Of a stretch of 64,000 bases of DNA, positions 16,021 through 50,350 are shown piece by piece. The position numbers and the translations under genes are program-made. This DNA comes from Atherix ibis. Its lineage: Eukaryota; Arthropoda; Insecta; Diptera; Athericidae. Location: positions 231,001 through 295,000 of the forward strand of contig CATQJD010000001.1 in assembly GCA_958298945.1 (NCBI GenBank). The letters run 5' to 3'. The notes beneath the pieces were generated by a model. It was not told where the DNA came from, did not search any database, and was given only the letters and a program-made list of their open reading frames with translations. The stretch's first letter is position 1. Every line of letters starts with the position of its first letter.

Positions 16021-16049
16021 TTATGAGGATTGTCGCCTAAAATGATTAT

Positions 16050-22634: not shown

Positions 22635-22934
22635 CTTTAGATTAAAAAATACCTGGATAGGCCCATATGTCGGATTTTCGTATATGTGTACGCAATTTTC
22701 TGTCTAAATTACTGCAAAGGCGGCGATAAATCGTAATTCTTGCAAATTTTTGTGGTGATTTTTTATATGGACATGACACCCACTGACATCTAGTATTCCT
22801 AATAAAAATATTTTGAATTACAAAAGCATAATTAATATTCATTGCAAATCACTTATTCTAAACAAAAATAAAATATAGACATAAGAGATGGCAACATTTC
22901 TTTTCAATCTCCTGTTATTATATCAATTGTATTT

Positions 22935-23157
22935 TGTTTTGGGTATGTGTGAATAAAATAAATAGAAACTGTGTGTGCTGAATATAAGAAAATGTATAAA
23001 CACTTTATTGAATAAAGTCTATAATTATAAGGAGGCGCACACATGCTCACTCGGCGACAGTCAGAGGAGATCTGGCGCCCCGCGTGCACAACTAACCGAG
23101 CATACAAAGCCGAACCAAAGAGGTCAGCACTACATGTGGTACACGTTTACTTTAACA
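22935..23157 (-). repeat. Copia 3' LTR
   Basis: On the minus strand it runs TGTTAAAG...CCAAAACA (TG...CA). It contains the motif AATAAA (+ strand) near its left side and AATAAAGT on both strands. The polypurine tract lies just inside at 23158-23166. Confidence 0.93.
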
Positions 23158-23166
23158 CCACTTCTT
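23158..23166 (-). promoter_or_regulatory. Copia polypurine tract
   Basis: The minus-strand sequence AAGAAGTGG directly precedes the 3' LTR TGTTAAAG. This is the expected plus-strand priming site. Confidence 0.75.
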
Positions 23167-23219
23167 AAACTGTACTACTATATAATAAAAAATATTTGCA
23201 ATATTATTTGCTTAGACCT

Positions 23220-24580
23220 ATTTTTAGACACATTTCATTGAAATGTTGATAGCGCCTAAAGACTTTGTAAACATATCGCCAAGCTGCTCTCTGAGCGCAC
23301 ATGAGTTACATTAATCCTACCATCATGATATAATTCGCGTACATAGTAATACCGAACTTCTATATGTTTTGAGCGCTTATGAAATTCATGATTCTTTGTC
23401 AGCTTTATTGCGCTTGCATTGTCTATAAACAATATTGGAGTACATTGATAAGAATTTATTTCACTCAGTAGTCTCTTGAGCCACACTAGTTCTTTAGCAC
23501 CTTCACTAGCAGCAACGAATTCCGCCTCTGTAGTTGACAGTGCTAATGATTTCTGCAACTGAGAAGTCCATGACACGGCAGTGTCTTCGATAAGAGATAC
23601 AAATCCATTTGTTGATCGTCGAGTGCTTATGTCGCCAGCAAAATCCGCATCTGAATAAGCACATAATCCTTTTGTAGATGGTGTGTAATGCAATCTAACA
23701 TGAACTGTTCCTTTTAGGTATCTAAAGATCCGTTTGACAGATGTCCAGTCTCGTGTAGTAGGTGTGGTCATTGACCTCGAAAATTTCGACACGGCGTAAG
23801 CAATATCCGGACGAGTAGCGCATGCTAGGTACATCAAAGATCCTACAGCTGACCGATACGGAATCTTCTTGTCTAGTGCACACGATTCTTCATGGTCTGA
23901 AGTATGATTTTCCACTGGTGTTTTTGTTGCATTGCAGTTTGTCATACCTAAACGTTGAAGTATTTTCATCGTGTAAGTCTCCTGTGTAATGAAGAAGCCA
24001 GATTCCCGACGTTGAATTCTCATGCCTAAAAATGATTCCAGAGATCCAACATTGATTTTAAACTCTGATTTAAGCTGATCCAGAAAAAGATTCACTTCTG
24101 CTTGTGTAGATCCAGCGATAAGACCATCCTCGATGTAAATTGCTACAACTAGTTTTCTTGATCCAGTTTTGCGAGCGTATATACAAACATCAGATTTTGA
24201 TTGTTGGAAATCATTTTCCTTCATAAAAGCGTCGAATCGGTTATTCCAGCATCGAGGAGATTGTTTTAAACCGTACAGAGATCTTTTTAGTTTACAAACT
24301 CGACCTGATTTGTCATCGAAGCCCTGTGGCTGAGTCATGTATATCTCTGTATCGATTTTGCCATAAAGAAATGCTGCTCGTACGTCAAATTGATCCAATA
24401 CTAATTTTTCATTTGCTGCTGTTGCGATTAGAGCTCGGATTGAGTCGTAACGAGCAACCGGGCTGAAGGTTTCCTCGTAGTCCAATTCAGCTCGTTGAAA
24501 TATACCACGGGCAACCAAACGAGCTCTGAATCGATCAATGTTACCGTCTGGCTTGTATTTTACTCAAAGTACCCAGCGGT
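23220..24580 (-). pseudogene. Copia reverse transcriptase and RNase H
   Basis: A 420-residue frame at 23256-24518. The RT start VARGIFQRAELDYEETFSPV is followed by DQFDVRAAFLYGKIDTEIYM, KRSLYGLKQSPRCWNN and the catalytic box IYIEDGLIAGS at about 24125-24145. Copia elements normally have YVDD, so the first catalytic Asp is replaced by Glu. RNase H follows with ALSTTEAEFVAASEGAKELV, FIDNASAIKLTKN and HKRSKHIEVRYYYVRE. The extreme C-terminus is frameshifted (the frame ends SESSLAICLQSL; the ancestral reading continues in another frame to about 23220). Upstream it is separated from the 24564-25814 frame by a stop near 24560. RT activity is unlikely because of the D-to-E change. Confidence 0.92.
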
Positions 24581-25814
24581 TGTCTATGACATGCTTGTTT
24601 GGTGGTAAATCTACCAATTCCCACGTTTCATTTTCGTCAAAGGCTTCCATTTCTTCATTCATGGCTTTGATCCATTGTTCAGAATAGCAGCCCTTTATGG
24701 CATCTTCAAAATTTATTGGCTCAAGATCTTGTTTAACAGCTCCCATCGTGTAAGCCCATGTTGAGTTTGCCTGGTGACTGGGCAATCTGTGAGTCTGATA
24801 GCCAACTTCATAATCATTTAGCTTCGGTGAAGCTTGAATTTTTCGAGTAGGACGAGAGTCGGAGATGATCTTTGAGTTTGCTTGAACCAGTGCTTCCTCA
24901 TCTACATCAATCTCTGCATCTTGGATGTAGTCGTCTTGATCATCGTCGTCTACTGGGTCATGGAACTCCTCACAGATGCTGTCGTCTTGTTCAGAATTAC
25001 AATCTTTTCTGGAAGTATTTGTGAGATGAAGTTCAATTTCATTTTGATTTGTACATAGCTTTTCAGGCCTAAAATCGACGTTACGTGAATTTATTACTCT
25101 ATGCTTTGATGGTACCCAAACTTGATATCCATCCTTTTCATTTACATAGCCAACAAACCGTCCAAATACAGCCTTGCTTCCAAACTTGCTTCGAAATTGT
25201 TTTGGCACATTTATATAGCATTCTGAGCCAAAAATCCTTAAGTAATTGAAACTCTTGAAAGATTGTCCTGACCATAATTCAATACGACTTTTATTAGATA
25301 CACTTGACTTTCCCGTGCGATTGATCAAAAATACTGCTGTGTCACATGCGTGGGCCCAAAAAGATTTTGGCATTTCACTGACAGATAACATAGAACGAGC
25401 TAACTCAACTACATGTCTATTTGATTGTTCTGAAACACCATTTTGTTCTGGTGTATATGGACATGAAAGTTGAAATTCTATACCTCTTTCACTCAAAATT
25501 TTACGTACTTTGGAGCAATCAAATTCACCACCACCGTCTGATCTGAAGAATTTTACTGTATGGCCAGCGGTATGACATTCATTTAAAAATGTGCTTAAAT
25601 GAGACGCTACTTCTGATTTTTCCTTCATGAAAAAAATGCGAGTGTATCTTGAAAAATCGTTCTTGAATACAACATAATATTTGAAACCGTTGATTGAACT
25701 TGTAGACATCGGACCATTTACATCCGAGTTGATCACTTCTCCAACTTTTTTTAGAACGATTTTGTCGTGGATGAAAGGGTTTTCTGTGCGGTTTTCCCAG
25801 TATGCATCCATCAC
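24564..25814 (-). pseudogene. Copia integrase core and IN-RT linker
   Basis: 416 residues. The integrase core runs from INSDVNGPMSTSSINGFKYY (first Asp) through FFRSDGGGEF (second Asp) to CPYTPEQNGVSEQSNRHVVE (catalytic Glu), a D,D35E arrangement. The copia GKGY-like C-terminal part follows (FGRFVGYVNEKDGYQVW), then an acidic linker (DDDDQDDYIQDAEIDVDEE) and the RT lead-in NEEMEAFDENETWELVDLPP. The core looks largely conserved. The frame overlaps the upstream protease frame by a frameshift near 25600-25750. Confidence 0.9.
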
Positions 25815-26340
25815 AGAATGATTTTGTGTCCTTGACTTTTACAGGTATTCCATTTTGTAGTAGGATTTCTCGCACATGTTGCTTGTCCTGATGACTGAGT
25901 CTTTCGTGCCACCCCTGGAGGTGATCCTCCGTGGTTGTGAGGTTAGCTGCCACTGTAGTTTTAGGTACACAAACACGCATGTTTATAATGTACACAGATC
26001 CTGAAAGCTTGCCAGTTGCCACGAGTTTATTTTTGAATCTCACTTCAACTCTATCGGCATCATATTTAACTTCATTTCCATGAGCTGTTGCCTGACGAAC
26101 AGAAAAGAGTTGGTGACAGATGTCTGGCACGTACCATACACTTTCTAATTTAGCAGAATACTTGCCATCGACAAAAACTTCTATATCAACACTGCCACAC
26201 CCATATGCGAGCATACAATTTTTGTTTGCAGTCTCGACTTGCTGCGGTATCGACAATGATTTATAAACAGAAAAATATTGTTTATTGGCAGTCATGTGAT
26301 GCGTAGCACCCGAGTTGGAAATCCAAACGTCTGCAGGCAT
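25579..26340 (-). pseudogene. Copia protease and integrase zinc domain
   Basis: The protease active-site region reads VWISNSGATHHMTANKQYF. The family motif is D-S-G-A, and here the Asp codon is AAC (Asn, + positions 26314-26316), so the protease is catalytically dead. The protease body follows (VWYVPDICHQLFSVRQ). The integrase zinc-binding H-H-C-C (GWHERLSHQ...H...FCDGCILGK) lies at about 25800-25910. The frame then shifts in the catalytic core; the correct reading continues in 24564-25814. A stop at about 26341 separates it from gag. Confidence 0.9.
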
Positions 26341-26469
26341 CGAGTCAGTTCCAACTGATTAACTAGTAGCTAGAAATGTGCTCTGTTTATTTGCACCATT
26401 CTTAGAACTAACCTCTGAGTTCTGATTCTCAGTATTTTTGCCCTCTGCTGCTATACACTTCCGACAGAT

Positions 26470-27238
26470 CGCGATAGTGGAAGATGCCCAGGTTTCTTGC
26501 AATAGTGGCATTGTCTTTTCTCCCTTTTCTCGAAATTTGACGAAGAACTTTCCGTTGACTTGTTAATTTTTTTTTTTATTGTAGACTTGCGACTTTGCAT
26601 GAAAAGCAGTGGACATCTGAGGCGCCTGTGTTGTAATAGAACTTTCTATTGAAACTAAATTTTCGACGAGTAGGTTACTCGTTTGCTCCGTTTCAGGAAT
26701 CTGATACCAGATGGAGCGGTAGAACTGGTACTCTGAGCCGAGTGTCTTGAATATACGATGATGCAATAACGACAACGGAAGTCAGTTCTTCGAGAATGTC
26801 AGTGAACACGTTTGATAATCGGGATGCATGCTTCTTAATCGACGTCGTCTCGTCCTTTGATATTCCGAAAAAGGTGTCAAACAATGTATATAACCTTTGA
26901 AGAGACGATTGTTCATACACTGATACTAGCGTGTCCCAAATATCTTTTGCGTTATTTTTCTTTCTTACGTACATAGCTGCGTCTTCTTCTAGCGCTGTAC
27001 CAATGATACGCGCCGCGCGCGTATTGTCGCTTTGCCAGGACCTATATTCTTTGGACGGATCACTATTGCCTGTTGGTCCTGCAGGACATGTCCGGGTGCC
27101 GTCAAAAATCGAAAAAAGACACTGTTCATTCAGACACAGTTCTATTTGCCACTTCCATGTTTCCCATTGCTCCTCGGATTTAAGTTTACGAATATTCACA
27201 CGGATGTACTTGTCGTGTTTGGAGTCTCCGTCCGCCAT
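26470..27238 (-). pseudogene. Copia gag
   Basis: Likely start at 27238 (MADGDSKHDKYIRVNIRKL). The frame 26693-27268 includes EEQWETWKWQIELCLNEQCL and AKDIWDTLVSVYEQSSLQRL, the classic copia gag (UBN2-like) pattern of W-x2-W-x2-Q and D-x-W-x2-L. Reading shifts frame near 26780 into RIFKTLGSEYQFYRSIWYQI (26563-26775). A degraded zinc knuckle, CHYCKKPGHLPLS, lies near 26490-26520. The product would be the capsid protein. It is broken by at least two frameshifts. Confidence 0.9.
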
Positions 27239-27313
27239 TTTTATCACACACGTTTCAATACAATTCAATGTACTTTATTTCACACGTTTCACTATATTAC
27301 TTTTGCAACGCAC

Positions 27314-27327
27314 CTGGGCCCATAACC
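27314..27327 (-). promoter_or_regulatory. Copia primer-binding site (half tRNA-iMet type)
   Basis: The minus strand reads GGTTATGGGCCCAG immediately after the 5' LTR CA end. This is complementary to the CTGGGCCCATAACC anticodon-arm segment of initiator Met tRNA, the internal tRNA fragment used as primer by copia-type elements, not the tRNA 3' end. Confidence 0.85.
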
Positions 27328-27550
27328 TGTTTTGACTATGTGTGAATAAAATAAATAGAAACTGTGTGCGCTGAATATAAGAATATGTATAAACACTTTA
27401 TTGAATAAAGTCTATAATTATAAGGAGGCGCACACATGCTCACTCGGCGACAGTCAGAGGAGATCTGGCGCCCCGCGTGCACAGCTAACCGAGCATACAA
27501 AGCCGAACCACAGAGGTCAGCACTACATGTGGTACACGTTTACTTTAATA
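27328..27550 (-). repeat. Copia 5' LTR
   Basis: 223 bp, near-identical to the 3' LTR and the solo LTR. On + its right end is TTTAATA where the 3' LTR has TTTAACA, a change shared with the solo LTR at 19724-19946. Confidence 0.93.
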
Positions 27551-28630
27551 TATTTTAGGTTTATGTATTTTGCAAATATCATTCAAATATCAAGCTCCTC
27601 AATTTAATAGATTTTCGGATAGTTTTAAAACACGCCATTCTCCATGAAATGGTAGCAAACCGAAATTCTGGTATACTTTTGTTTGTTGTTCAAGTTATTA
27701 TTTTCATACTTATCGGAAAGTGCCAGTGAAGGTGGATTTTTCATCTTCTTTAAAGAATTTACGAAAAAGTAAGTATTTACATAAATAGTTTAAAATTTTT
27801 ATTTCATAATATGAAGTGTTTTGTAAAGGGTTGCTGGTCATTCAACGAAATGAGGATACCGGGAATTTCTTTCTTTATGTAAGTTAACATCTTTATTTTA
27901 ATTAGAGAAATTATTAAAAATTTATTTTATGATGTGTTTAAATAATTTTTAATGATTTGTTCAATAAAGAATATGGTAAAAAAGTGAAATGTTTGAGGTT
28001 GAATAAAGGTAAACAAATGTGATTTTGACAGTTCAATGTTTATCGGAAAATAGTAAAGTGCCAGCGCGCATAAAGTCCGTGTACGGTTTGAGCGAGAGTG
28101 ATTGCAAGTTAATACTATTCCTAAGAACGTAAGCGCAGTTTCATTAAATTACACATTAATGGCTAATGAATGGAGGAAAATAAATAATGCCTTAGTTGTG
28201 ACTATTTATAAATATCATATGTACAGTATAATCTTTGTAAAAAGTTGATATCGATAAAGTCAAATTATATGGATTTATAGGAATGGACAATTGAAATAAA
28301 ATCTGAAGATAAGGATTTACTGGAATGCACAAATAAGGGAAATAAATTTGATGAAAATTTACCATATATTTAAAACAATCAAACTTTTATTAATCTTAAA
28401 GTGAATAGACCGCATTATATCTACCGATTATCAAAAGTGCAATAATTATGATCCCGAAACAGAAAAATTGAAAATTAACCTAGAAAATGTCAAGAAAATG
28501 ATGGGAATAGAAACTATTCTACTAAAAGATATCAATAAAATGTTGCCAATAGCAAAGGAAGTTCTTGCAAGTATATTTATAAATAGTTATATTGTTGATA
28601 GAACTTAATACGAATTTTTTATTTCAGAAA

Positions 28631-29556
28631 ATGAAGTGTTTTATGAAGAATTGCTGCTCAACCGAAGGAATGAGGAAGCCGGGAATTTCTTTCTTTCGGT
28701 AAGTTGATATTTTCATTTTTACTTCAGAAATTAAAAAAAATTTAGTTTATAATGTGTTTAGATGGTTTTGAATGATTTATTTTATGCAAAAAGTGTTTAA
28801 AAGTTGAAAGTTTGGCATTCAATGAATGTAAACAAATACGGTGTTGACAGTTCAATGTTTACCCGAAAATAGTTCAGTGCCGGCGTACATATAGTGTGTG
28901 TAAGAAAATTTAAGGGAACGAATTTTTTTAATAGTGCAAAAAATACGTGAATTTCTATTAATTGTTAATTGTAAAATTAAATTTAACGATCGTATATTTC
29001 TATGTTAACTTTACAGGTTCCCGCATAATAAATGGTTGCGGGAAAAGTGGATTGTGGCTGCAGCATCCGGTATTCCTAAGAATCGGGACGTTGTGTGCTC
29101 GGTTCACTTTAATAGAGCAGACATCAAAGTTGGAGCGAGAAGGAGCAAATTACAAACAAATGCTATTCCTTCCGTATTTGGTATATGGAATAGCCACACG
29201 GTAAGTTTTAATACTACAAAATTAATAATTGCAAAATTATAACGCATTCAAATCATTTTTGTAGGAAATCGGGCAACCACCAGCAAACCAGGCAAAGGTT
29301 GAAAATGAAACAGTAAGTTGTACGAATATTTTTGTATTGTATTTAATTTTGTTTCATTTTAAAAAGGAGTTCATGCGGGATGTCGTCGCATTGAACATTG
29401 AAGTTCCCTTCAATCATGCTGAGGAAGATAATGAACATGTAATTTAAAAACAATGGTTTATATATAATTTTGCCTTGTTTTATTTTGTAGGTCCCCAATA
29501 GCATCACCGAATGCGAGGACGTGCATTCAGCTGGAGAACCATTTAATGTACCGAAT
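28631..29556 (+). pseudogene. THAP-domain exons of P-like transposase
   Basis: Five exons with canonical splice sites: 28631-28698, 29017-29200, 29265-29312, 29367-29438 and 29491-29556. Exon 1 starts MKCFMKNC and ends in ...FF(R) before GTAAGT; exon 2 starts at a TTTACAG acceptor. Spliced together they give a complete C2CH THAP DNA-binding domain: C3 and C8, the FP motif, KWLREKWIVAA, the second zinc pair in VVCSVHF, and TNAIPSVF matching the family AVPTIF box. Exons 3-5 encode an acidic linker. All junctions keep the frame. In P elements the N-terminal THAP domain binds internal sites near the transposon ends. Exon 5 ends at a GTAATA donor, and the catalytic core expected next is missing. 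The reading is unusually intact for this window, so a truncated DNA-binding product is possible in principle. Confidence 0.8.
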
Positions 29557-29819
29557 GTAATAAATATAGTGAAAAAGTGGTCGAATACATATCCGGCTTT
29601 ATTGTTTTTAAGCTAGGCAAGTCTTTGCATTGCGAAGACTGTCTTTCAGCTTTAGAAGGGGAATTCACATCAAGCAGTTTGATAGCGTACAAGTCCTTAG
29701 GCTTTTTAAAGTACCCTTCTACAAGTGTTGTGAAAATTTGCCGAAGTGCTGAAAAACAAATTCGACAGCAGATGGCGGAATGTGGTCAGGATAGTTCCAT
29801 TTTAAATAAAGTAACTTAG
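29557..29819 (+). pseudogene. P-like transposase C-terminal fragment
   Basis: Open at 29577-29819 with VEYISGFIVFKLGKSLHCED and CLSALEGEF, then SLIAYKSLGFLKYPSTSVVK. This matches the conserved C-terminal block of THAP9/P-element transposases (Y-I-x-G-[FY]-[IV]-x2-K-L ... C-x2-C). It ends at TAG (29817-29819). The hundreds of residues that should lie between THAP exon 5 and this block are deleted. Confidence 0.75.
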
Positions 29820-31538
29820 AATAAAATCGCTATCAAAGTTAGGGAGCAATTTTGTAGAAGCTTCCTTATTCGAGAATACTATTTCTCATTTTATCAATAG
29901 TGGCCACTTTAATCATTTAATTAATTCAATAATTCAACAGTACTTACGCATCCGGTGGTACTATATTTCACGTTCATGTGTCGACAAACTTTCTGATCGT
30001 AGTTTCTTTAATAGATTAGTTTTATTTAAACACGCGTAAAATATTCATGCTCAATTTTTGTATCTTCTTTTCTTATCAGTAATATTCTGCGGTAGCTTCT
30101 CCCGACTATATTGCATTCATATTATATATTTCTTCGTCCCATCTCACTTTCATTTTTTCTTCTAAATGCAAACCTAATTACTTTTTTAAATATTGTATGA
30201 GTGCTCATACATCTTATTTGTTATTGTTACGGATTCATTTTCTTATCCCTTGCGTATGTACGGAATACAAATGTGCTTGCAACTAAGAATTTATTTTATT
30301 CGTATTAACGCAATCATTTATTTTAAATTCGACCCCCCCCCCCCCCCCATTTCTATCATTTTTCAGTCTGCTTTCCATTGTTGTTTTGATTGCGTTAAAT
30401 AAATAAAGTATATTCGGCTTATTATTTCAATAATTTTTTTTGCATTTGTACTTTTGCTTGCTTTATTAGACTATTTTCTAATGCATTCAGTAAATAATAT
30501 TGTTTTCATTTTTTTTAGAACATTAGTTATTAATTATTTAAGTATATTAAATTTTTCATCTTGTAATTTTGTTTTAAAGGTTTTCCTTTAACGCTGTATA
30601 TGATTAACACATTTATATTATAATTAAGGTTTTTGTATCTACAATACTTATGCTTGCTTAACATTAAAATTTATATTTACTAAGTTGCGGTGTGGTTTTA
30701 ATTTTTTCTTCCATCTTAACTTTTCATTTGTTTCTTGTTCTAAAAAAAAAACTTTTCATATAAGAAATATTATTTTTTTTGTTATAAAACGGAGAAGATG
30801 CGTTAGTTATATTTTTGTAAATTATTTTAAGCAGCATTTGCTATTTTTTTGTTTTGTTTTGTTTTAAGACATATTTATTTTTTAATTTAATTTAAGTCAC
30901 ATGCCTATTCAAATTACCATTAATTTTGCATTTTTGGAATGGACCATTTTATAATGCGTTTACTACATAATATTGTTTTCTTTTTTTAGAATATTAGCTA
31001 TAAATTATTTAACTACATTGAATTTTTCCATTCTAATTTAGTTTTAACGCATTTTGCTATAATGTTGTATACAATTAACTTCTATCTTATTAACAACTTG
31101 ATGTAATATTCTATGTAATTAATGCTTTTTTAATGAATTTTTATTTGTGGACATAATTGTTTTAATATAATCAAATAACTTGCAATTTTTTTTTATATAC
31201 TCTTGCACCTTATAATTCTGTTTTAATAAATAATATACAGTGAAATAAATAAAATGAAAATATATAATAAATAAATAAATATTTAAAAATAGAATACTGT
31301 GTTTTATTACATATTTACAAAACTAATTCCATCAAACAACGAGACCTGCAATATTAAAAAATCTGCTTCTTTACACATAAATGATATCACATATGAAAAA
31401 TGGTTTTAAACAAACCGCTTCAATCGCATATTGAAGTTTAAAAGTAGCCCCCAATGATTTACGCCGTTTCTGTTGTATTGCACGTGTGTGTGTCCTATGA
31501 ATGTATTGCCACAAAATTCGGTCAGAATTTTTGTGTAG
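29820..31538 (+). other. AT-rich 3' region of the P-like element
   Basis: No ORF of note. It contains a run of 16 C (30333-30348), unusual in this AT-rich context. It also holds a diverged direct duplication of about 170 bp (about 30430-30610 and 30915-31090), each half with TAATATTGTTTTC followed by a TTTTTTTAGAA run. From about 31215 it matches the left part of the inverted elements at 50351 and 60934 and the 3' end of the composite units. Confidence 0.65.
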
Positions 31539-31605
31539 AGGCCTATCCAGTTCTTCTTTAATCTAAGGCTTATACAAACAACCGACGTCGGGGCTATAAT
31601 CTAAG

Positions 31606-32174: not shown

Positions 32175-34575
32175 CTTTAGATTAAAAAATACCTGGATAA
32201 GCCCATATGTCGGATTTTCGTATATGTGTACGCAATTTTCTGTCTAAATAACTGCAAAGGCGGCGAGAAATCGTAATTCTTGCAAATTTTTGTGGTGATT
32301 TTTTATATGGACGTGACACCCACTGACATCTAGTATTCCTAATAAAAATATTTTGAATTACAAAAGCATAATTAATATTCATTTCAACTCACTTATTCTA
32401 AACAAAAATATGATATAGACATAAGAGATGGCAACATTTCTTTCCAATCTTCTGTTATTATATCCAATTGTATTTTAGGTTTATTATGTATTTTGCAAAT
32501 ATCATTCAAATATCAAGCGCCTCAATTTGATAGACTTTCGGATAGTTTTAAAACACACCATTCTCCATGAAATGGTAGCAAACCGAAATTCTGGTATACT
32601 TCTGTTTGTTATTCAAGTTATTATTTTCATGCTTATGGGAAAGTGCAAATAAAAGTGGGTTTTTCATCTTCTTTAAAGAATTTACGAAAAAGTAAGTATT
32701 TAAATAAATAGTTTAAAAATTTTATTTCATAATATGAAATATTTTGTAAAGGGTTGCTGGTCATTCAACGAAATGAGGATACGGGAATTTCTTTCTTTAT
32801 GTAAGTTGACATTTTTTTTTTATTAGAGAAATTATTAAAAATTTATTTTGTGATGTGTTTAAATAATTTTTAATGATTTGTTCAGTAAAGAATATTGTTA
32901 AAAAAGTGAAATGTTTGAGGTTGATTAAAGGTAAACAAATGTGATTTTGACAGTTCAATGTTTATCAGAAAATAGTTCAGTGCCAGCGCGCGTAAAGTGC
33001 GTGTACGGTTTGAGCAGGAGTGATTGCAAGTTAATACTATTCCTAAGAACGTAAGCGCAGTTTCATTAAATTACACATTAATGGCTAATGAATGGAGGAA
33101 AATAAATTATGCCTTAGTTGTGACTATTTATAATTATCATATGTACAGTATAATCTTTGTAAAAAGTTGATATCGATAAATTCAAATTATATGGATTTAT
33201 AGGAATGGACAATTGGAATAACATCTGAAGATAAGGATTTACTGGAATGCACAAATAAGGGAAATAAATTTGATGAAAATTTACCATCTATTTAAAACAA
33301 TACTATCCAATTACCTGATATTAACAATCAAACTATTAATAATTTTAAAGTCAAGAGAGACCGCCTTATGTCGATCGATTATCGAAATTGCAATAATTAT
33401 GATCCCGAAACAGAAAAATTTAAAATTAACCTAGAATATGTCAAGAAAATGTTGGCAATGGAAACTATTCTACTAAAAGATATCAATTAAATGTTGCCAA
33501 TAGAAAAGGAAGTTCTTGCAAGTAGGTTAATCAATACTGATTTGGAAAGCATATGAATTTATCATTTTAGATATAAAGAACGAGGTAATTATTACTTTCG
33601 AGCAAAGGAATATTCTTGGCAATTAAGGAATGTACTAACTCAATTCAACTTTTACCTTTGGTTGCAACATATAATAGGTGTATATTGGCAAACATGTAAT
33701 ATATTCTTAGAATGAGGATAAATTTATAAAGTAATAATATCTGTTCGAATGGAAATTTTCAAAAAATTCGGAGTGCATGAACGACTATGAAAAATACATA
33801 GAAAAGGATCCCAATGATGTAAGAGCGCTTTAACGGGAAAATGAAACCATTTTACAACTGCATAAGAAATACAATATTGGTTACATTGCATTTAGAATGT
33901 AATTAAATTATTGAACTAATGAAATTATTTAGGCACCATAAGTATATAAAAAGATTTACGATGGCGATTCTAAAAATGTAGTAGATCTTCCGCATATAAA
34001 AAATTTCAAAGAATTTATTAGTAACCATTCCTCCTAGTTAGTTTTATGAATTAAAAAATAAATAAACAAAATATGACCGTTTCTAAAGAGTATAGTATTT
34101 TATTAAAAATTTACCATCAAATGACAAAATTCACAATATTAATAGATATATTTGCTTACCCATAATAATATTATAAGTGCAATTGATTTTAAAATTACCT
34201 CGATAATCGTATACTGAACTTAAAAATCGCCCCCAAATGATTTTCGACTTTTCTGTAATTTTGCATGTGTGTGCGTTCTTACTAAAATACAATCGCATTT
34301 ATTATCAGAATATTGTAAAAAAATATATTGGATGTAGTTATATTTAAATTAAATGTATATTTAAGAAAACTGAGTTAAAATGTATATGCTTCATGCTTTT
34401 GGAATACAGAAAATTTCTATTCTGAAAATGAGATGTTACTGGAGGTTATATTTACATAAAAAATGCTACCCATGTATATACAGAAATTTCGATTTATTGC
34501 CACTTGGCCATTGTTTTATGTATGCTTATACAAACAACTGACGTCGGGGCCTATCCGGATGTTCTTCAATCTAAG
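32175..34575 (+). mobile_element. Composite P-like unit U3 (uninterrupted, 2.4 kb)
   Basis: The cleanest unit. From left to right it carries the left terminal repeat CTTTAGATTAAAAAATACCT; a P-like 5' leader whose donor AAAAAGTAAGTATTT matches the inverted P-like elements; a THAP exon 1 relic (about 32735, MKYFVKGCW, first zinc Cys changed to Tyr, then a one-base deletion); the TPR-gene segment (33202-34036); a P-like 3' end from TAGTATTTTATTAAAAATTT onward; and the right terminal repeat GGCCTATCCGGATG...CAATCTAAG. Confidence 0.85.
33202..34036 (+). pseudogene. Captured SPAG1-like TPR gene fragment in U3
   Basis: Carries MSIDYRNCNNYDPETEKFKI then NLEYVKKMLAMETILLKDIN followed by a TAA, then the TPR start YKERGNYYFRAKE with a lost base in the next codon (ATTCTTGGCAATT instead of ATTCTTTGGCAATT), which throws the second TPR helix out of frame. 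ECMNDYEKYIEKDPNDVRAL follows with a stop. It is not translatable as one protein. Confidence 0.6.
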
Positions 34576-35145
34576 GTGACATACTTACGTAAGGGAATGT
34601 TTTAAACATTTTGGAAGCGACAAATACATGTTGCTTGTCTTTGCTGTCGTAATTGTATACCAGTCTTAAAGCCTATAATGATAGCAATATAATTCCCACT
34701 AAAACAAAAACCACATACACTTTATGTTGTCAAATTTTTTTAAATCTTTACAATTTTAAGACATTGCACAAAACTACAACTGTTTTCTCGCCAAATTAGA
34801 TCTTGTTTTATTATTGCAGTTTTAGATCAAGTACTGCCACACATTTCATTGTTTTTTTGTGCCAGGATTATTGTTTGATAGTTGAAATTGAAATAGAAAT
34901 AAGATAAGTGAGTACATTATTTGTAGTTATATTAAAAAATTGCGTGAAACAATTTATAAGTAAACAATTTTATTAAAATTGTGTTTAATTAGTTTATTTA
35001 CGCAAAACTTGTTAATTTCTGAGAGTATTTGCTATTCAGTAAACTAAAATCGTTGTGAAAATTTATAAAACGTTTATATTCTAGTGGTTGGTCACTTTAT
35101 TGCGTCACCTAACCTTAAATTATAGAAGAACTGGATAGGCCTCCA
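34576..35145 (+). repeat. Array spacer s4
   Basis: Spacer copy (GTGACATACTTACGTAAGGG start; AAATAGAAATAAGATAAGTG; ends with CCTTAAATTATAGAAGAACT before the U4 terminal repeat). Confidence 0.8.
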
Positions 35146-36067
35146 CTTTAGATTAAAAAATAGCTGGATAAGCCCATATGTCGGATTTTCGTATATGTGT
35201 ACGCAATTTTCTATCTAAATAACTGCAAAGGCGGCGAGAAATCGTAATTCAACTCACTTATTCTAAACAAAAATATGATATCGAAATAAGAGATGGCAAC
35301 ATTTCTTTCCAATCTTCTGTTATTATATCCAATTGTATTTTAGGTTTATTATGTATTTTGCAAATATCATTCAAATATCAAGCGCCTCAATTTGATAGAC
35401 TTTCGGATAGTTTTAAAACACACCATTCTCCATGAAATGGTAGCAAACCGAAATTCTGGTATACTTCTGTTTGTTATTCAAGTTATTATTTTCATGCTTA
35501 TGGGAAAGTGCAAATAAAAGTGGGTTTTTCATCTTCTTTAAAGAATTTACGAAAAAGTAAGTATTTAAATAAATAGTTTAAAAATTTTATTTCATAATAT
35601 GAAATATTTTGTAAAGGGTTGCTGGTCATTCAACGAAATGAGGATACGGGAATTTCTTTCTTTATGTAAGTTGACATCTTTTTTTTATTAGAGAAATTAT
35701 TAAAAATTTATTTTGTGATGTGTTTAAATAATTTTTAATGATTTGTTCAGTAAAGAATATTGTTAAAAAAGTGAAATGTTTGAGGTTGAATAAAGGTAAA
35801 CAAATGTGATTTTGACAGTTCAATGCTTATCGGAAAATAGTTCAGTGCCAGCGCGCGTTAAGTGCGTGTACGGTTTGAGCGAGAGTGATTGCAAGTTAAT
35901 ACTATTCCTAAGAACGTAAGCGCAGTTTCATTAAATTACACATTAATGGCTAATGAATGGAGGAAAATAAATAATGCCTTAGTTGTGACTATTTATAAAT
36001 ATCATATGTACAGTATAATCTTTGTAAAAAGTTGATATCGATATATTAAAATTATATGGATTTATAG

Positions 36068-36900
36068 GAATGGACAATTGAAATAAAATCTGAAGATAAG
36101 GATTTACTGGAATGCACAAATAAGGGAAATAAATTTGATGAAAATTTACCATCTATTGAAAACAATACTATCAAATTACCTAATATTAACAATCAAACTA
36201 TTAATAATGTTAAAGTGAAGAGAGAACGCATTATGTCGATCGATTATCGAAATTGCAATAATTATGATCCCGAAACAGAAAAATTTAAAATTAACCTAGA
36301 ATATGTCAAGAAAATGTTGGCAATAAAAACTGTTCTACTAAAAGATATCAATAAAATGTTGCCAATAGCAAAGAAGGTTATTGCAAGTAGGTTAATCAAT
36401 ACTGATTTGGAAAGCATATGGATTTATCATTTTATATATAAAGAACGAGGTAATTATTACTTTCGAGCAAAGAAGTATTCTTGGCAATTAAGGAATGTAC
36501 TAAATCAATTCAACTTTTACCTTTGGTTGCAACATATAATAGCTGTATATTGGCAAATATGTAATATATTCTTAGAATGAGGATAAATTTATAAAGTAAT
36601 AATATCTGTTCGAATGGAAATTTTCAAAAAATTCGGAGTGCATGAACGACTATGAAAAATACATAGAAAAGGATCCCAATGATGTAAGAGCGCTTTAACG
36701 GAAAGATGAAACCATTTTACAACTGTATAAGGAATACAATATTGGTTACATTGCATTTAGAATGTAATTAAATTATTGAACTAATTAAATTATTTAGGCA
36801 CCATAAGTATATAAAAAGATTTACGATGGCGATTCTAAAAATGTAGTAGATCTTCGGCATATAAAAAATTTCAAAGAATTTATTAGTAACCATTCCTCCT
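36068..36900 (+). pseudogene. Captured SPAG1-like TPR gene fragment in U4 (longest open frame)
   Basis: The frame 36215-36580 (121 residues) is the longest in any unit: MSIDYRNCNNYDPETEKFKI, then KKMLAIKTVLLKDINKMLPI and SRLINTDLESIWIYHF, then YKERGNYYFRAKKYSWQLRN. Here the usual TGA before the intron-like gap reads TGG, so translation runs straight into the TPR. A missing T (TTCTTGGCAATT) then shifts the second TPR helix out of frame, giving NVLNQFNFYLWLQ instead of the IKECTKSIQLLP seen in U5. Confidence 0.6.
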
Positions 36901-37066
36901 AGTTAGTTTTATGAATTAAAAAATAAATAAACAAAATATGACCGTTTCTAAAGAGTATAGTATTTTATTAAAAATTTACCATCAAATGACAAAATTCACA
37001 ATATTAATAGATATATTTGCTTACCCATAATAATATTATAAGTGCAATTGGTTTTAAAATTACCTC

Positions 37067-37080
37067 GATAATCGTATACT
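37067..37080. repeat. Left target-site duplication of Jockey-like element
   Basis: GATAATCGTATACT here and GATAGTCGTATACT at 41180-41193 (one mismatch) bracket the element. Uninterrupted units read GATAATCGTATACTGAAC. Confidence 0.9.
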
Positions 37081-37216
37081 TTTTTATTTTTACAGATATT
37101 TACAACTTCAATACAGTAATAAGCAAATTTGAGCAATAGTATTAATTAGCTTGAAAGGTTGTGGGAAGTAAACATAAAATGAAGTTCCTCCTGCTAGTGT
37201 GTGTTTTTGTTAAGCC

Positions 37217-38549
37217 TCAGTATTTTAGTAAATCACGTGACCAGTGACGCTTAAGTCTTCGATGGGTATTTCTAGGGAAGGAAGTAGAGGATAGTTCTTG
37301 AACAAGAGGATTATTATGATTGAGGACACGGGAACGGAACTTTTTATAACGAGACACAGCCACGTCAAAAACAAATGGGACCTTGAGATCACGATGAATA
37401 ACAGTATTGCGAACATAAAAGGGGGCATCGACAATTGTACGGAGTATTTTTGATTGAAGGGATTGGATTCGGCGGGAATTATATCCCCAGAGTTCTAGTC
37501 CGTATGTCCATATGGGTTTCAGTAAGGTATTGTATATCAGTACTTTGCTGTCTATAGTAAGTTTGGAACGTTTGTCTAGAAGTCGAAGTAGTTTAAGGTA
37601 ACGTCTTTTTAGTTCTTGTCTTTTATTTCTTGCATGCGGGTTCCATGTCAAGCGTTCATCTTAGTACAGTCCTAGGTACCGAGCTTCGGGCATGACTCAC
37701 GACGGAGGGCATGACTCACGACGGAGAGTGAAAGTTACCTGGGTAGATTTACGTTCATTGACTTTTATTCTCCATCTAGTAAACCAGTTCTGGAGGGTTT
37801 GCATTTGGATTTGGAGGGTTTCGGAAGCATGTTGGGGATTTTCACTAGATGCAAGGCACGCCGTATCATCGGCGTATGTAGCAAAGAAGATATTAGGGCA
37901 AATTGGGATATCGGATGTGTAAATGTTGTAGAGGATGGGTCCAAGTATGCTACCCTGAGGAACCTCAGCCAATATCCGAGAGATATTGGAGAGTTCGTTG
38001 GATTTATTTACTTGGAAGTGTCGGTTGGAAAGGAATGATCTTAGGACTATGAAATAGGTGGAAGGAAGGAACCTCTTGAGTTTCCAGAGTAGACCCGGGT
38101 GCCAAACTCTATCAAAAGCTTGACTAATATCAAGAAACACACCGGGACAGTACTCTTTTCTCTCTTAAGAGGATGGAATGAAATCGACAACTCGATGACA
38201 CTGCTGGGTAGTAGAGTGCTCGGCGCGGAAACCAAATTGGTGATTAGGAATTAAATTTGACGATTTTTGTAGAGGATGTCAGAAGGATGATTTTTTCAAA
38301 GATTTTTGAGAGTAGTGGAAGGAGACTTATTGGTCTGTAGGAAGTGGGGCGGTTTATTGTTTTATTGCGCTTAGTGATCATTTTAATGATGGCAAATTTC
38401 CAGAGGATTGGGAAATGTGCTGCTCTTTTAGGGAGTCGTTGGAGTATATTGGAGGTAATCAGATCATAGCCAGGAGCTTTATTTTTGGGAAGGAGCTTGA
38501 TTAAATTGGCAACTTCGGAAGGAGTGATTGCCTTAGGGGGAAGGATCAT
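37217..38549 (-). pseudogene. Jockey-like ORF2: reverse transcriptase and C-terminal domain
   Basis: Order on the minus strand: LIKLLPKNKAPGYDLITSNI (38510-38450), TSYRPISLLPLLSKIFEKII (about 38345-38285), FLDISQAFDRVWHPGLLWKL (38137-38080), EVPQGSILGPILYNIYTSDI and the intact catalytic box ATYADDTACLASS at about 37860, then NWFTRWRIKVNERKSTQVTF. An 18 bp direct repeat (CATGACTCACGACGG twice, about 37692-37725) disrupts the frame before the C-terminal WNPHARNKRQELKRRYLKLL and LKPIWTYGLELWGYN part. Frameshifts occur near 38270, 38150 and 37690. The YADD box is intact but no single frame spans the enzyme. Confidence 0.9.
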
Positions 38550-38845
38550 GGGTAAAGGAATGGATAGTTTCGTCTCGATTGTAGTGCAATGAGTCCTGTC
38601 TAATATGTCCTCATGTGGAGTAAATGTTTGTACAAGGTGTTCAGCAATAGCGTTTGCTTTATGTTTGTCCGTTTTGGCCCAGGTTCCGTCAGTTTTTCAT
38701 AAAGGGTGCTTTGTTTTTCTATAAGATAGTATTTGTCTTATAGCAGTCCACAAAGTTCTGTTTTTCGTTAGGGTTGAAGTGTAGTTTCTAAAACGTTCTG
38801 TATTGTATTTAGTGATTTCGTCATGTAGTTCTTTTTGCAGCATGT

Positions 38846-39507
38846 TCAGTTTGGTTTTGTCGCTGGGCATTCTTGTATGTTGCCAATGAGCTCTTTTTCT
38901 GCAATAAGACGCCTAATTGTTAATGGTTGAATTGTCAGGTTTTGTGTAGGTTTCGAGTTTTTACTTTTTTGCGAAAAGGCTGTAGCGTTTTGTAATGAAC
39001 ATGTAAACTTGTGTTCCGCGTCATCTAGTTCTTGTTCTGTTTTTAAGCTTTGTCGTAAGTCTAAATGCTCGTCAATATATTGTTTGAATAATTCCCAATC
39101 AATTGGTCCATTAATAAGTCTCGGCGCATTGACTTTTGCAGTGGATTGGGGATCGAGGACTAGTAGAACAGGGCTATGATCGGAGTTAAGATGTAGGAGT
39201 GAATTAACATTAATGTTGGAGGAATTCATGGGACTAGTTATAAAGTAATCTAGAAAGTCAGGAAGCTTGGATCTGGAAGTTGGCCAGTAAGTGGGAGTCG
39301 GAGGAAAGATGACTTGGTAGAGAGAGTCCTGAACGTTGTGTAGTTGCGTATGTAGAAGTTGGACCTGGACGTAAAGTGTGTTTCTGTAATGAGTACTACG
39401 TCTATTCGTTTGTCATGTAGTAATAAGTCAAGTTCTAGTCGTTTGGAACTCAGTCCATTAGTATTCCAAAGGAGGATTGTAAGGGAATTTGCAGTACAGG
39501 ACGACAT
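38846..39507 (-). pseudogene. Jockey-like ORF2: APE endonuclease fragments
   Basis: The N-terminus LTILLWNTNGLSSKRLELDL and RIDVVLITETHFTSRS (39500-39390) carries the first APE motifs (N and E). It then jumps within about 20 residues to TYWPTSRSKLPDFLDYFIT in another frame (39300-39230), skipping roughly 110 residues that should hold the catalytic Asp and Asn. HLNSDHSPVLLVLD (39190-39140) is the terminal SDH motif. This internal deletion removes the active centre. Confidence 0.88.
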
Positions 39508-39669
39508 TTATTTCTGAACGGTTGGCGATAAAGTTGACACAATGGACATCAACGCATTTACAAGAGGTGTTAGGATTTTATTTTATTCCTGTACAAGTGA
39601 GTTAGTTAATTGGGAGAACATTGAAGATATATCGTAGGACGAAAATGACGGAGGGGGAATATAGTTCTT

Positions 39670-39870
39670 ACTATATTGTTGTTGTTGTTGTACTTTTGGC
39701 TGCTGATATTGCTGTCGGTTTGGTTCTTGTTGAATTTCTGAGACTCCTGACGGGATATTAGTATTCGAATTTTGTCCTTGTTAATGTTGCTGTTGTGGCT
39801 GCTGTAGTTGTTAATGTTGCTGCTGCTGCTGTTGCTGTGTCTGTTGTTGTTGTTACTGTTGTTGTTGTCG
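39670..39870 (-). repeat. CAG/CAA (poly-Gln) microsatellite-like tract
   Basis: Many TGT/TTG/CTG repeats on +, reading QQQ on the minus strand. It encodes the Gln-rich end of Jockey-like ORF1, with scattered stops. Confidence 0.8.
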
Positions 39871-40884
39871 GTGTTGAGGTTGACCTGATGCTACTGATGC
39901 ATATGAAATGGTCGGTACTACGTAGCTTGTATGTGGGATTTGTGCTCTCTGAGGTTTTATTTTAGCTTGTAGGGTCTTGTAGGTAGCACAACCCTTATAG
40001 TTTGCTGGATGTGCACCCATGCAGTGGACGCACTTAACTGCACTTATGCTCTCTTTTAAGCATGAAGATGTCAAATGTTCACCAGCACATTTGACACATT
40101 TAGGCGGGTGCCTACAATAGGCTTTGGAGTGTCCAAATTCCTGGCACCTGTGGCATTGCACAATATCCTTTTGCGGATACGGTTCCTCTACTTTAATTTT
40201 TGTGTAGAACAATGTCTCTATTTTTAAAATTTCTTTGTTCTTCGCTGATGGTTCCAAGTCCACAAAAAATTGTGGAAGAGATCGATCCTCTTGTCCTTTG
40301 GTTTTAACGTTGTTGATGTTGCGCATAACGAAACCAAGCACTGCCAACTCGTTTTTGATGTCTTCCACCGGCGTAGTATGATGTAGGTAGCGAATCACTT
40401 CACGGAAAGGCTTTAACTTTTTAGGCTGATATGTGTGAAACTCCGATTAAGTCTCATCCAAGTACTTTACGACACTTCTGTGAGAGGCGCCGCTCTCTGT
40501 ATAAATTGCAAGACCTTTTGGATGGGCCTTGCATGTGAATTCACTCGTACCAATGAGTTTGTCAATGGCACGGCCTAAATCACAAAAATTGGTGATGTTT
40601 TTAACGTAAATGGGCGGTGTAGTCTGTTTCTCTGCCCCAATATCGGCATTAGAAGCAATTGCATCAGGAAGCGCTAAAGCAGCAAATCTGTTACTGCACG
40701 ACGGGTGGCTAGTTGTTGGCTCCGCTACTTGCTTTTGCTTCTTTGGAGGTTTTGGAGTTTTTGGCGATGAGAGCCGCTTTCCCGATACTTGTCTATCTCT
40801 GCCAGTCGGCTTTATGAATGTGGCAGAATCCGTAACAGAATCCGTAGATTTCACGGACGGTGACGTTGACCGCTTACGCGGCAT
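39853..40884 (-). pseudogene. Jockey-like ORF1 (gag) with three zinc knuckles
   Basis: Starts at 40884 (MPRKRSTSPSVKSTDS). A basic, Ser/Pro-rich N-terminus is followed by an RNA-recognition-like region. VIRYLHHTTPVEDIKNELAV and FFVDLEPSAKNKEILKIETL (about 40400-40220) come next, then zinc knuckles CHRCQEFGHSKAYC, CVKCAGEHLTSSC and CVHCMGAHPANYKGC. A single in-frame TAA at 40447-40449 (after KYLDET) splits it; the two halves are otherwise in the same frame. The protein is a nucleic-acid-binding gag acting in RNP formation. Family usual length is about 400-550 residues; here it is about 344 plus the Gln-rich tail. Confidence 0.9.
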
Positions 40885-41179
40885 AATCGTGCGTATGTAA
40901 ACTCTTGTCTTTTCTGCCTTATCAACAGTTTAATTGTTCACTGAAAATGTTGCCAAGCAGAGTACCGCTATGCAGCCTCTGCTTATGCAAATTTAACTCG
41001 GCGAAATGCAGTTATACTATTTGTAGTCTATTTATAGTCTGTACACTGTTTTTTCTCTCTCTTTTTTCCACGCAATTAGATGAGACACTTTCACTTCAAT
41101 AATAATAATTTATCACAATGGATTTTTCTACACCGAAAACAAAAACGTGACCGCTCTGTTCAAGAGTTCAAACACAACT
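40885..41179 (-). other. Jockey-like 5' untranslated region
   Basis: About 295 bp between the ORF1 start and the 5' target duplication, with no ORF. The coding-strand 5' end reads AGTTGTGTTTGAACTCTTGA. In Jockey elements this region carries the internal promoter; I cannot see a definite motif. Confidence 0.6.
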
Positions 41180-41193
41180 GATAGTCGTATACT
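41180..41193. repeat. Right target-site duplication of Jockey-like element
   Basis: GATAGTCGTATACT, pairing with 37067-37080. Confidence 0.9.
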
Positions 41194-41544
41194 AAACTTA
41201 AAATTTGCCCCCAAATGATTTTCGACTTTTCTGTAATTTTGCATGTGTGTGCGTTCTTACTAAAATACAATCGCATTTATTATCAGAATATTGTAAATAA
41301 AAAAATATATTGCATGTAGTTATATTTAAATTAATTGTATATTTAAGAAAACTGAGTTAAAATGTATATTCTTTATGCTTTTGGAATACAGAAAATTTCT
41401 ATTCTGAAAATGAGATGTTACTGGAGGTTATATTTACATAAAAAATGCTACCCATGTATATACAGAAATTTCGATTTATTGCCACTTGGCCATTGTTTTA
41501 TGTATGCTTATACAAACAACTGACGTCGGGGCCTATAATCTAAG

Positions 41545-42052
41545 GTGACATCCTTACGCATGAGAATGTTTTAAACATTTTGAAAGCGACAAATACATGT
41601 TGCTTGTCTTTGCTATCGTAATTGTATACCAGTCTTAAAGCCTATGATGATAGCAATGCAATTCCCGCTAAACCTAAAACCACATACACTTGATGTTTTC
41701 AAAAATTTTAAAATCTTTACAATCTTAAGACAATGCACAAAACTACAACTGTTTTCTCGCCAAATTAGATCTTGTTTTATTATTGCAGTTTTAGACCAAG
41801 TACTGCCACACATTTTAGTGTTTTTTATGTGCCAGGACTAATTTTTGATAGTTGAAATTGAAATAGAAATAAGATAAGTGAGTACATTATTTGTAGTTAT
41901 ATTAAAAAATTGCATGAAACAATTTATAAGTAAACAATTTTATTAAAATTGTGTTTAATTAGTTCCTTTACACAAAACTTGTTAATTTCTGAGAGTATTT
42001 GCTATTCAGTAAACTAAACTCCCTGTGAAAATTTGTAAAACGTTTATATTCT
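41545..42052 (+). repeat. Array spacer s5
   Basis: Spacer copy, sister to 31606-32174. It ends at TTTATATTCTAG, which is fused directly to the unit 5' internal sequence ACTTTCGGATAGTTTTAA. The left terminal repeat and the first about 350 bp of the next unit are missing, probably by recombination at TTCTAGA/TGATAGA-like sequence. Confidence 0.75.
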
Positions 42053-44099
42053 AGACTTTCGGATAGTTTTAAAACACGCCATTCTCTATGAAATGGTAGC
42101 AAACCGAAATTCTGGTATACTTCTGTTTGTTGCTCAAGTTATTATTTTGATACTTATCGGAAAGTGCAAATAAAAGTGGGTTTTTCATCTTCTTTAAAGA
42201 ATTTACGAAAAAGTAAGTATTTAAATAAATAGTTTAAAATTTTTATTTCATAATATGAAGTGTTTTGTAAACGGTTGCTGGTCATTCAACGAAATTAGGA
42301 TACCGGGAATTTCTTTCTTTATGTAAGTTTACATCCTTATTTTAATTAGAGAAATTATTAAAAATTTATTTTATGATGTGTTTAAATAATTTTTAATGAT
42401 TTGTTCAATAAAGAATATGGTAAAAAAGTGAAATGTTTGAGGTTGAATAAAGGTAAACAAATGTGATTTTGACAGTTCAATGTTTATCGGAAAATAGTTC
42501 AGTGCCAGCGCGCATAAAGTCCGTGTACTGTTTGAGCGAGAGTGATTGCAAGTTAATACTATTCCTTAGAACGTAAGCGCAGTTTTATTAAATTACACAT
42601 TAATGGCTAATGAATGGAGGAAAATAAATAATGCCTTAGTTGTGACTATTTATAAATATCATATGTACAGTATAATCTTTGTAAAAAGTTGATATCGATA
42701 AATTCAAATTATATGGATTTATAGGAATGGACAATTGAAATAAAATCTGAAGATATGGATTTACTGGAATGCACAAATAAGGGAAATAAATTTGATGAAA
42801 ATTTACCATCTATTGAAAACAATACTATCAAATTACCTAATATTAACAATCAAAATATTAATAATGTTAAAGTGAAGAGAGACCGCCTTATGTCGATCGA
42901 TTATCGAAATTGCAATAATTATGATCCCGAAACAGAAAAATTGAAAATTAACCTAGAATATGTCAAGAAAATGTTGGCAATAAAAACTGTTCTACTAAAA
43001 GATATCAATTAAATGTTGCCAATAGCAAAGGAAGTTATTGCAAGTAGGTTAATCAATACTGATTTAGAAAGCATATGAATTTATCATTTTAGATATAAAG
43101 AACGAGGTAATTATTACTTTCCAGCAAAGGAGTATTCTTTGGCAATTAAGGAATGTACTAAATCAATTCAACTTTTACCTTTGGTTGCAACATATAATAG
43201 CTGTATATTGGCAAATATGTAATATATTATTAGAATGAGGATAAATATATTAGGTAATAATATCTGTTCGAATGGAAATCTTCAAAAAATTCGGAGTGCA
43301 TGGACGACTATGAAAAATACATAGAAAAGGATCCCAATGATGTAAGAGCGCTTTAACGGAGAGATGAAACCATTTTACCACTGCAGGAGGAATACAATGT
43401 TGGTGACATTACATTTAGAATGTAATTAAATTATTGAACTAATTAAATTATTTAGGCACCATAAGTATATAAAAAGATTTACGATGGCGATTCTAAAAAT
43501 GTAGTAGATCTTCCGCATATAAAAAATTTCAAAGAATTTATTAGTAACCATTCCTCCTAGTTAGTTTTATGAATTAAAAAATAAATAAACAAAATATGAC
43601 CGTTTCTAAAGAGTATAGTATTTTATTAAAAAATTTACCATCAAATGACAAAATTCACAATATTAATAGATATATTTGCTTACCCATAATAATATTATAA
43701 GTGCAATTGATTTTAAAATTACCTCGATAATCGTATACTGAACTTAAAAATCGCCCCCAAATGATTTTCGACTTTTCTGTAATTTTGCATGTGTGTGCGT
43801 TCTTACTAAAATACAATCGCATTTATTATCAGAATATTGTAAAAAAATATATTGGATATAGTTATATTTAAATTAAATGTATATTTAAGAAAACTGAGTT
43901 AAAATGTATATTCTTTATGCTTTTGGAATACAGAAAATTTCTATTCTGAAAATGAGATGTTACTGGAGGTTATATTTACATAAAAAATGCTACCCATGTA
44001 TATACAGAAATTTCGATTTATTGCCACTTGGCCATTGTTTTATGTATGCTTATACAAACAACTGACGTCGGGGCCTATCCGGATGTTCTTTAATCTAAG
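42053..44099 (+). mobile_element. Composite P-like unit U5 (left end missing)
   Basis: Starts within the 5' leader, carries the THAP exon 1 relic MKCFVKNGCW-type at 42255 (ATGAAGTGTTTTGTAAACGG), the TPR segment (42725-43560), the P-like 3' end and the right terminal repeat GGCCTATCC...TTTAATCTAAG. Confidence 0.82.
42725..43560 (+). pseudogene. Captured SPAG1-like TPR gene fragment in U5 (best TPR)
   Basis: The frame 42755-43012 reads MDLLECTNKGNKFDENLPSI then ENNTIKLPNINNQNINNVKV and MSIDYRNCNNYDPETEKLKI before a TAA. After the intron-like gap the TPR reads YKERGNYYFPAKEYSLAIKE then CTKSIQLLPLVATYNSCILA in one frame. It has the TPR signature positions (Gly8, Tyr/Phe11, Ala20, Pro32) and is strikingly close to the first TPR of SPAG1-type proteins (KEKGNEAF...YTRSI..LP..VAYNN). 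A second block, SECMDDYEKYIEKDPNDVRA, matches the following TPR. SPAG1-like proteins are cytoplasmic HSP90/R2TP cofactors for axonemal dynein assembly. The identification is from motif recall. RPAP3 or TTC12 relatives are alternatives. Confidence 0.62.
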
Positions 44100-45070: not shown

Positions 45071-45074
45071 ATAC

Positions 45075-50342: not shown

Positions 50343-50350
50343 GTTTTATG
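50343..50350. repeat. Left 8 bp target duplication of inverted P-like element
   Basis: GTTTTATG, repeated at 51717-51724. Empty units read CATTGTTTTATGTATGC once. Confidence 0.95.

Follow-up and report, generated by a model that had tools for sequence, protein, structure and literature searches.

The window analysed here (64,000 nucleotides of Atherix ibis DNA, C7:231001-295000) was taken from an assembly of 670 Mb in 144 contigs. At positions 32175-34575 of its forward strand lies unit U4 of 2401 bp, which was identified by self-BLAST and genome search as a P-like element with a captured segment of the gene SPAG1. In the self-BLAST, complete or fragmentary copies of the unit appeared between 11.6 and 64 kb of the window. 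About 10 copies were distinguished there, several of them interrupted or cut and all on the forward strand. To the left of U4 are U1 (13077-15630, continuing at 19271-19491 after an R1-like LINE), U2 (19493-22028, with a solo LTR at 19724-19944) and U3 (22635-28585, split by a copia-like element at about 22935-27550 and cut at 28585). To its right are U5 (35146-37080 with the rest at 41180-41536, interrupted by a LINE-like element), U6 (42052-44101, left 356 bp missing), U7 (48000-51779, with a nested P-like element at 50351-51716), U8 (52344-54698), U9 (58599-62360, with a nested P-like element at 60934-62297) and the internally deleted U10 (62929-63821).

When the window was joined with the next 75 kb, the array spanned C7:245469 to about C7:363320 and contained 26 copies of the insert (2 of them partial), 10 of which start in the window and 16 beyond it. 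Amplification into a tandem array, as proposed in a preliminary description of this DNA, was thereby confirmed. The captured segments of the array showed 87.6-96.7% identity to that of U4, and U1 was the most diverged of 8 compared copies, with the lowest pairwise identities (90.1-91.5%). Wherever the flanks are preserved, the same spacer of about 570 bp follows the 3' side of the units (34576-35145, +, after U4). Thus, the array grew by duplication. No target duplication was found around the array unit (GGCCTCCA versus GTGACATA). A higher-order duplication of about 10.6 kb, from 43849 to 54446, explains why U7 and U9 are 99.7% and their nested P-like elements 99.4% identical. The spacer is closed by a P-end relic of about 30 bp (35114-35145; equivalents precede other units). 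The relic stands directly 5' of the unit's own left end, which places two P ends side by side in the same orientation.

The R1-like LINE in U1 (15631-19270) has an ORF of 715 aa (16219-18366) with 56 protein matches; the 4 that carried organism names (Anthophora-like, Lasius, Trichogramma and Tribolium) were all from insects. Copia-like ORFs were recognised by eye in the nested stretches 22935-27550, 44208-47587 and 54806-58186, of which the latter two are 99.6% alike and lie within the higher-order duplication. An antisense element, LINE-like by eye, is inserted in U5 (37081-41179), and the flanking U5 pieces overlap by 14 bp, as expected of a target duplication. At the left edge, window 1-5942 holds a direct duplication (1-1888 versus 4053-5942, 98.7%) with ORFs that look mariner-like by eye. 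The search of the window against Rfam gave zero matches.

Structure of the unit and P-like copies in the window

The left part of U4 (32175-33005, +; unit 1-831) is P-derived, includes the terminal repeat and leader, and is 72-77% identical to three P-like copies in the window. Unit 3-831 aligned with P50 at 51715-50871 (72.3%), unit 3-828 with P60 at 62296-61455 (72.4%) and unit 546-831 with P28 at 28617-28902 (77.1%). The alignment to the nested element covers the leader and THAP exon 1 and extends into intron 1. The leader donor AAAAAGTAAGTATTT is present in the unit, and the THAP exon 1 relic (32734-32800, +) is followed by the donor GTAAGT at 32801. The P-like left end, leader donor and THAP exon 1 relic that had been described before were confirmed.

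P50 (50351-51716, -) is a P-like copy without SPAG1, and P60 (60934-62297, -) is a duplicate of the P50 insertion (99.4%). Their terminal repeats of 28 bp, within the 27-31 bp or so usual for the P superfamily, are imperfect (89%) and in P50 start with CTTAGATTAAA; both copies are flanked by the target duplication GTTTTATG, whose 8 bp are likewise typical of the superfamily. P28 (28569-31567, +), also devoid of SPAG1, is a longer P-like copy with THAP exons. Its joined exons matched the Pfam family THAP with 6.9e-14; the unit keeps the exon-1 relic only. The C-terminal piece of P28 matched a zinc ribbon below the cut-off (0.0013), and no P-element model of Pfam was matched. The P-like copy reported earlier at 28573-31567 exists, but it lacks the left 511 bp or so and is fused to the cut unit at 28585. 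In the window, the terminal motif occurred 30 times at up to 6 mismatches, compared with 0 times in 20 mononucleotide shuffles. The same motif was found at the unit ends and at the ends of dispersed copies.

The ends of the unit had been said to align with the P-like elements on both sides, which held in full for the left side only. The right junction zone and the P-derived right subterminal part occupy 34037-34281 (+), with the P match starting at 34114 (P50 1127-1294 against unit 1940-2105). The subterminal part therefore does follow P50, but the terminus does not: where the normal P terminus would be expected, the right end (34282-34575, +) repeats the left 300 bp or so in inverted orientation, with 67-72% identity.

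Between the P-derived parts lies the captured SPAG1 segment (33044-34036, +; unit 870-1862). It is preceded by the left junction zone (33006-33043, +), in which P homology ends at about unit 831 and homology to the parent gene starts at about unit 851-870, the breakpoints being resolved to tens of bases only. As had been stated previously, this insert of about 1 kb is absent from the P-like elements; the window alignments gave no counterpart in P28, P50 or P60.

The captured SPAG1 segment and its parent gene

A protein search of the insect's own genome led to an open parent gene, first matched as C2:5464439-5465296, with open exons and no P ends. The SPAG1 gene was traced over C2:5464101-5465625 with an open reading of 431 aa. 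Its introns of 65, 57, 54 and 55 nt are all GT-AG, the splice sites being placed by reading frame and alignment to human SPAG1 rather than from transcripts. When joined from HLDFDY onwards, its 321 residues matched human SPAG1 (PDB 9hb4_G, residues 24-319) with E=1.1e-64, the best match in PDB. In the 16 kb of sequence examined around the parent, two later TPR stretches of human SPAG1 matched nothing but these exons. No P end was found there, and P50 yielded only two further matches, 26 and 35 bp long.

The captured segment is homologous to C2:5464306-5465340, with 72.2% identity between U4 and the parent over 1059 aligned positions. The alignment is confined to unit 870-1862; it starts partway through one exon and stops partway through the fifth. 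All pieces of the segment lie on the forward strand. The 3' part of exon E0 (33044-33119) is followed by intron 1 (33120-33202; 83 nt, GT-AG, compared with 65 nt in the parent), exon E1 with the DYRNCNNYDPETEK lead-in (33203-33525) and intron 2 (33526-33570; 45 nt, GT-AG, compared with 57 nt). Exon E2 (33571-33691), which encodes the TPR beginning KERGNYYF, has its end placed by alignment with the parent. Intron 3 (33692-33747) and intron 4 (33876-33932) were placed in the same way; the splice sites of the former and the donor of the latter have decayed in U4. Between them is exon E3 (NDYEKYIEKDPNDVRAL; 33748-33875), and the 5' part of exon E4 (33933-34036), which aligns with the parent, completes the segment. 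The translation of E4 alone gave an unconvincing best E of 0.17 against PDB.

For each of the parent's four introns, a counterpart was found in the copies. Intron 1 was recognisable in all 9 copies examined, with its AG end in 7, and intron 2 in 8 of 9 (AG in 4 of these 8), the ninth being U3, which is cut off before intron 2. Between the parent and U6, introns were 81-86% and exons 74-86% identical, the introns thus being conserved at least as well as the exons. Since the introns were carried along, genomic DNA was captured, as the preliminary description had suspected from intron-like gaps. A retroposed SPAG1 cDNA as the source of the segment is refuted by these introns, and this practically impossible reading, in favour of which nothing was found, was rejected.

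The protein signal of the unit itself is decayed. In a tblastn search of the whole window with human SPAG1 residues 86-286, 18 of 25 HSPs (E<=10) fell inside inserts, and the best score was 39.7 bits, whereas 50 dinucleotide shuffles reached no more than 26.6. When the pieces were joined, with SPAG1 already in mind, human SPAG1 ranked first in PDB (3.6e-10; 3.4e-11 with exon E0). Together with the colinear match of the parent, this bears out the SPAG1-like order of lead-in and TPR. Against Pfam, the joined pieces gave only a weak match to TPR_1 (2.8e-5, below the curated cut-off), whereas the parent was clearly above it (6.2e-13). The longest single ORF (36068-36577) alone matched no Pfam family, and in PDB it found only an adiponectin chain (E=6.5e-4) and not SPAG1. 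Thus, the SPAG1 signal requires joined pieces or SPAG1 as the query. A search of the joined pieces against the protein database returned no relative under its length and word limits, which has no bearing on absence.

Dispersed copies and coding constraint

The DNA search of the genome gave at least 110 matches (C7 included; 40 of 5391 candidates scored) and the protein search at least 210 (C7 included; 147 of 452 scored). Merged by hand, the listed protein matches fell into at least 64 places outside C7, namely 63 non-parental ones and the parent, and the DNA search added three more (L012-L014). Seventeen non-parental places were read, of which the DNA search had supplied 7 and the protein search 10; they were better matches or hand-picked rather than a random sample. 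P-like sequence was present on at least one side in 15 of the 17 and on both sides in 8; beside the SPAG1 fragments of L061 and L062, no convincing P sequence was found. A second open SPAG1-like gene may be among the remaining listed places.

Copy L011 (C3:66861377-66864460, 3084 bp) is complete, having both P ends and the SPAG1 segment, and is flanked on both sides by the perfect 8-bp target duplication GTTTGAAC. Both ends were also located in L012 and L033. L012 had no matching duplication (5 of 8 positions mismatched) and L033 showed no target duplication, so that one of three SPAG1-bearing dispersed copies with both termini located carries one. P-like ends thus flank the same segment elsewhere in the genome, in keeping with the amplification that had been proposed. 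L011 also holds an insert that looks mariner-like by eye.

The array copies in the window share their spacer and hence arose by duplication, not transposition, which would also be expected if P-like elements had inserted into a duplicated SPAG1 gene that was then duplicated in tandem, with no capture involved. In the unit, however, the P ends lie outside the SPAG1 segment and not within it, and the alignment to the parent does not reach beyond unit 870 on one side and 1862 on the other. Moreover, L011 combines P ends with a perfect 8-bp duplication on another chromosome. On the evidence of L011 and the parent, insertion into a SPAG1 copy was rejected as extremely improbable.

The TPR segment follows THAP exon 1 in sense orientation, as it would if it were part of the P-like transposon's own gene. 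Yet P-like copies without it exist, not only P28, P50 and P60 but also L016 and L017, the former with an 8-bp duplication containing 1 mismatch. In addition, there is an open SPAG1 gene without P ends, and, given the phase-2 end of THAP exon 1, a splice to the captured E1 would be out of frame. A TPR belonging to the transposon gene, which would have contradicted the capture envisaged earlier, is therefore scarcely credible and was rejected on account of the SPAG1-free P copies.

Since L011, L012 and L013 have the ordinary short P right end, the inverted 300-bp right end seems to be a later trait of the array lineage. This bears on the possibility that the SPAG1 piece was carried along between a pair of adjacent P-like copies moving as one block. 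Such macrotransposition has been proposed for a P-MITE of a mosquito (PMC1562414, in the part of that paper concerned with this element) and would fit the right terminus of the array unit, which is an inverted left end. The ordinary right ends of the three dispersed copies make the inverted end look later, however, and no P copies lie within the 16 kb around the parent. Macrotransposition is accordingly regarded as unlikely, while still carrying a noticeable share of the probability, and capture during gap repair is preferred.

Among the copies that were aligned, the start of the captured segment lies at nearly the same place. The left junction has a second form, B, in L015 and L063: there, P intron 1 extends about 150 bp further towards the segment than it does in the array unit. 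Two captures are possible, as is one capture followed by a deletion. L063 belongs to a region (C3:59660770-59679258) with four SPAG1-fragment matches in a row, three of them about 6.2 kb apart; the SPAG1-P copies there may form a second tandem array. On C1, the SPAG1-P copies L009 (C1:80306859) and L010 (C1:80965578) share about 4.9 kb at 97-99% identity, i.e., a duplication 0.66 Mb apart.

Each of the ten array copies examined contained a stop or a frameshift. Variable sites were distributed over the first, second and third codon positions as 53/222, 37/220 and 39/219 in the array (pieces c14a and c19 omitted), and as 115/181, 109/180 and 103/177 (p=0.58) in 8 rows of array and dispersed copies (exon E3 omitted). 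A coding function of the copies was rejected, there being no third-position excess in the array or in the array plus dispersed copies. Given the stops and frameshifts and the lack of codon-position bias, the SPAG1 fragment appears, as judged from sequence, to be carried and not used as protein.

Proposed origin and relation to known systems

A P-superfamily transposon very probably captured about 1 kb of host SPAG1 and spread to many sites, one lineage giving rise to the C7 array. The earlier idea of a P-like transposon with a captured gene was thus borne out, whereas neither the inverted ends of 300 bp nor the dispersal through the genome had been noticed. According to the proposed mechanism, about 1 kb of SPAG1, from the end of one exon to the start of the fifth and with four introns, would have been copied into the interior of a P element. 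It would have been placed in sense beside the THAP exon-1/intron-1 region and would have taken the place of the remaining transposase gene. The likeliest route of capture is a template switch while the gap left by P excision was being repaired. Defective copies can result from such gap repair when it is aborted, slips or switches template (PMC4168063, in its treatment of this repair), and template switching in double-strand-break repair is named as a route by which P and other TIR elements gain outside DNA (PMC8277862, in its discussion of such routes). Since the ends were kept, the element could have been moved in trans by a P-like transposase to many chromosomal sites, as the P ends and the target duplication suggest. 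The dispersed copies would then have decayed without coding constraint. One lineage would have taken an inverted left end as its right terminus, acquiring 300-bp inverted repeats, and this lineage and its flanking spacer would have been amplified in tandem, presumably by unequal exchange, to form the C7 array.

Pack-MULEs, Pack-CACTA and gene-carrying Helitrons capture and multiply fragments of host genes, mostly in plants and fungi, and Helitrons do so without TIRs. All of these differ from the present case in belonging to other transposon superfamilies than P. The survey of 100 animal genomes in PMC8277862 counts 370 Pack-TIR cases, of which 323 belong to hAT or TcMariner; insect reference genomes contributed none. 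The same source assigns Ssk-FB4, found in fly populations and tandemly duplicated at one locus, to MULEs, and mentions that P elements capture DNA upon artificial activation. As in the Pack-TIRs described there, TIR ends here enclose the duplicate of a host segment whose parent can be identified, and multiple copies have spread by transposition. Host sequence lies between the TIR ends, its parent is on C2, and L011 shows the copy moving with the element. Pack-TIR breakpoints show microhomology frequently, though not always. Unlike them, the present elements belong to the P superfamily, arose naturally and have left many decayed copies as well as an array of 26 (compared with PMC8277862 as far as its case descriptions go).

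The P-MITEs of Anopheles gambiae likewise combine P 5' and 3' ends and 8-bp duplications with a non-P interior, but this interior is described, in the passages of PMC1562414 that deal with it, only as unrelated to P, whereas here it was traced to five exons and four introns of SPAG1. Galileo, of the P superfamily, has long inverted ends and recruited internal sequence into them, and Tetris is a foldback element whose repeats formed satellite arrays (PMC3688188, PMC4079207 and PMC4168063, in their accounts of these elements). In contrast to what is given for these two, the inverted ends reported here are about 300 bp long, 67-72% identical and seen in the array unit but not in L011, L012 and L013, and the array unit is the whole element plus a spacer, with host exons inside. 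In view of the ordinary right ends of these three copies, the long TIRs of the array unit appear to be a derived trait and are not taken as a sign of membership of Galileo or the foldback elements.

A limited search of the open-licence PMC literature found no report of a natural P-superfamily element with an identified host gene. The kind of event, known as Pack-TIR or transduplication, is not new, but a P-superfamily carrier of an identified host gene apparently is, within that search. A natural P-superfamily element here contains part of a conserved host gene whose open parent is still present, and the many dispersed copies and the 26-copy array preserve what followed. Each step from the capture through spread and end replacement to the tandem array can therefore be dated within one genome.

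In the Stellate system of Drosophila, tandem repeats carrying the P-superfamily element 1360/hoppel silence a testis gene. By analogy, the C7 array and the dispersed SPAG1-P copies might give rise to small RNAs that target the host SPAG1, which is considered very unlikely. The parent and the array share six exact stretches of 21-30 nt, two of which overlap. All are in sense orientation, so that a small-RNA role would need antisense transcription. Going by the shared letters, such a role would be allowed only marginally. Outside the array, the dispersed fragment L061 has 40 nt in common with the parent gene.
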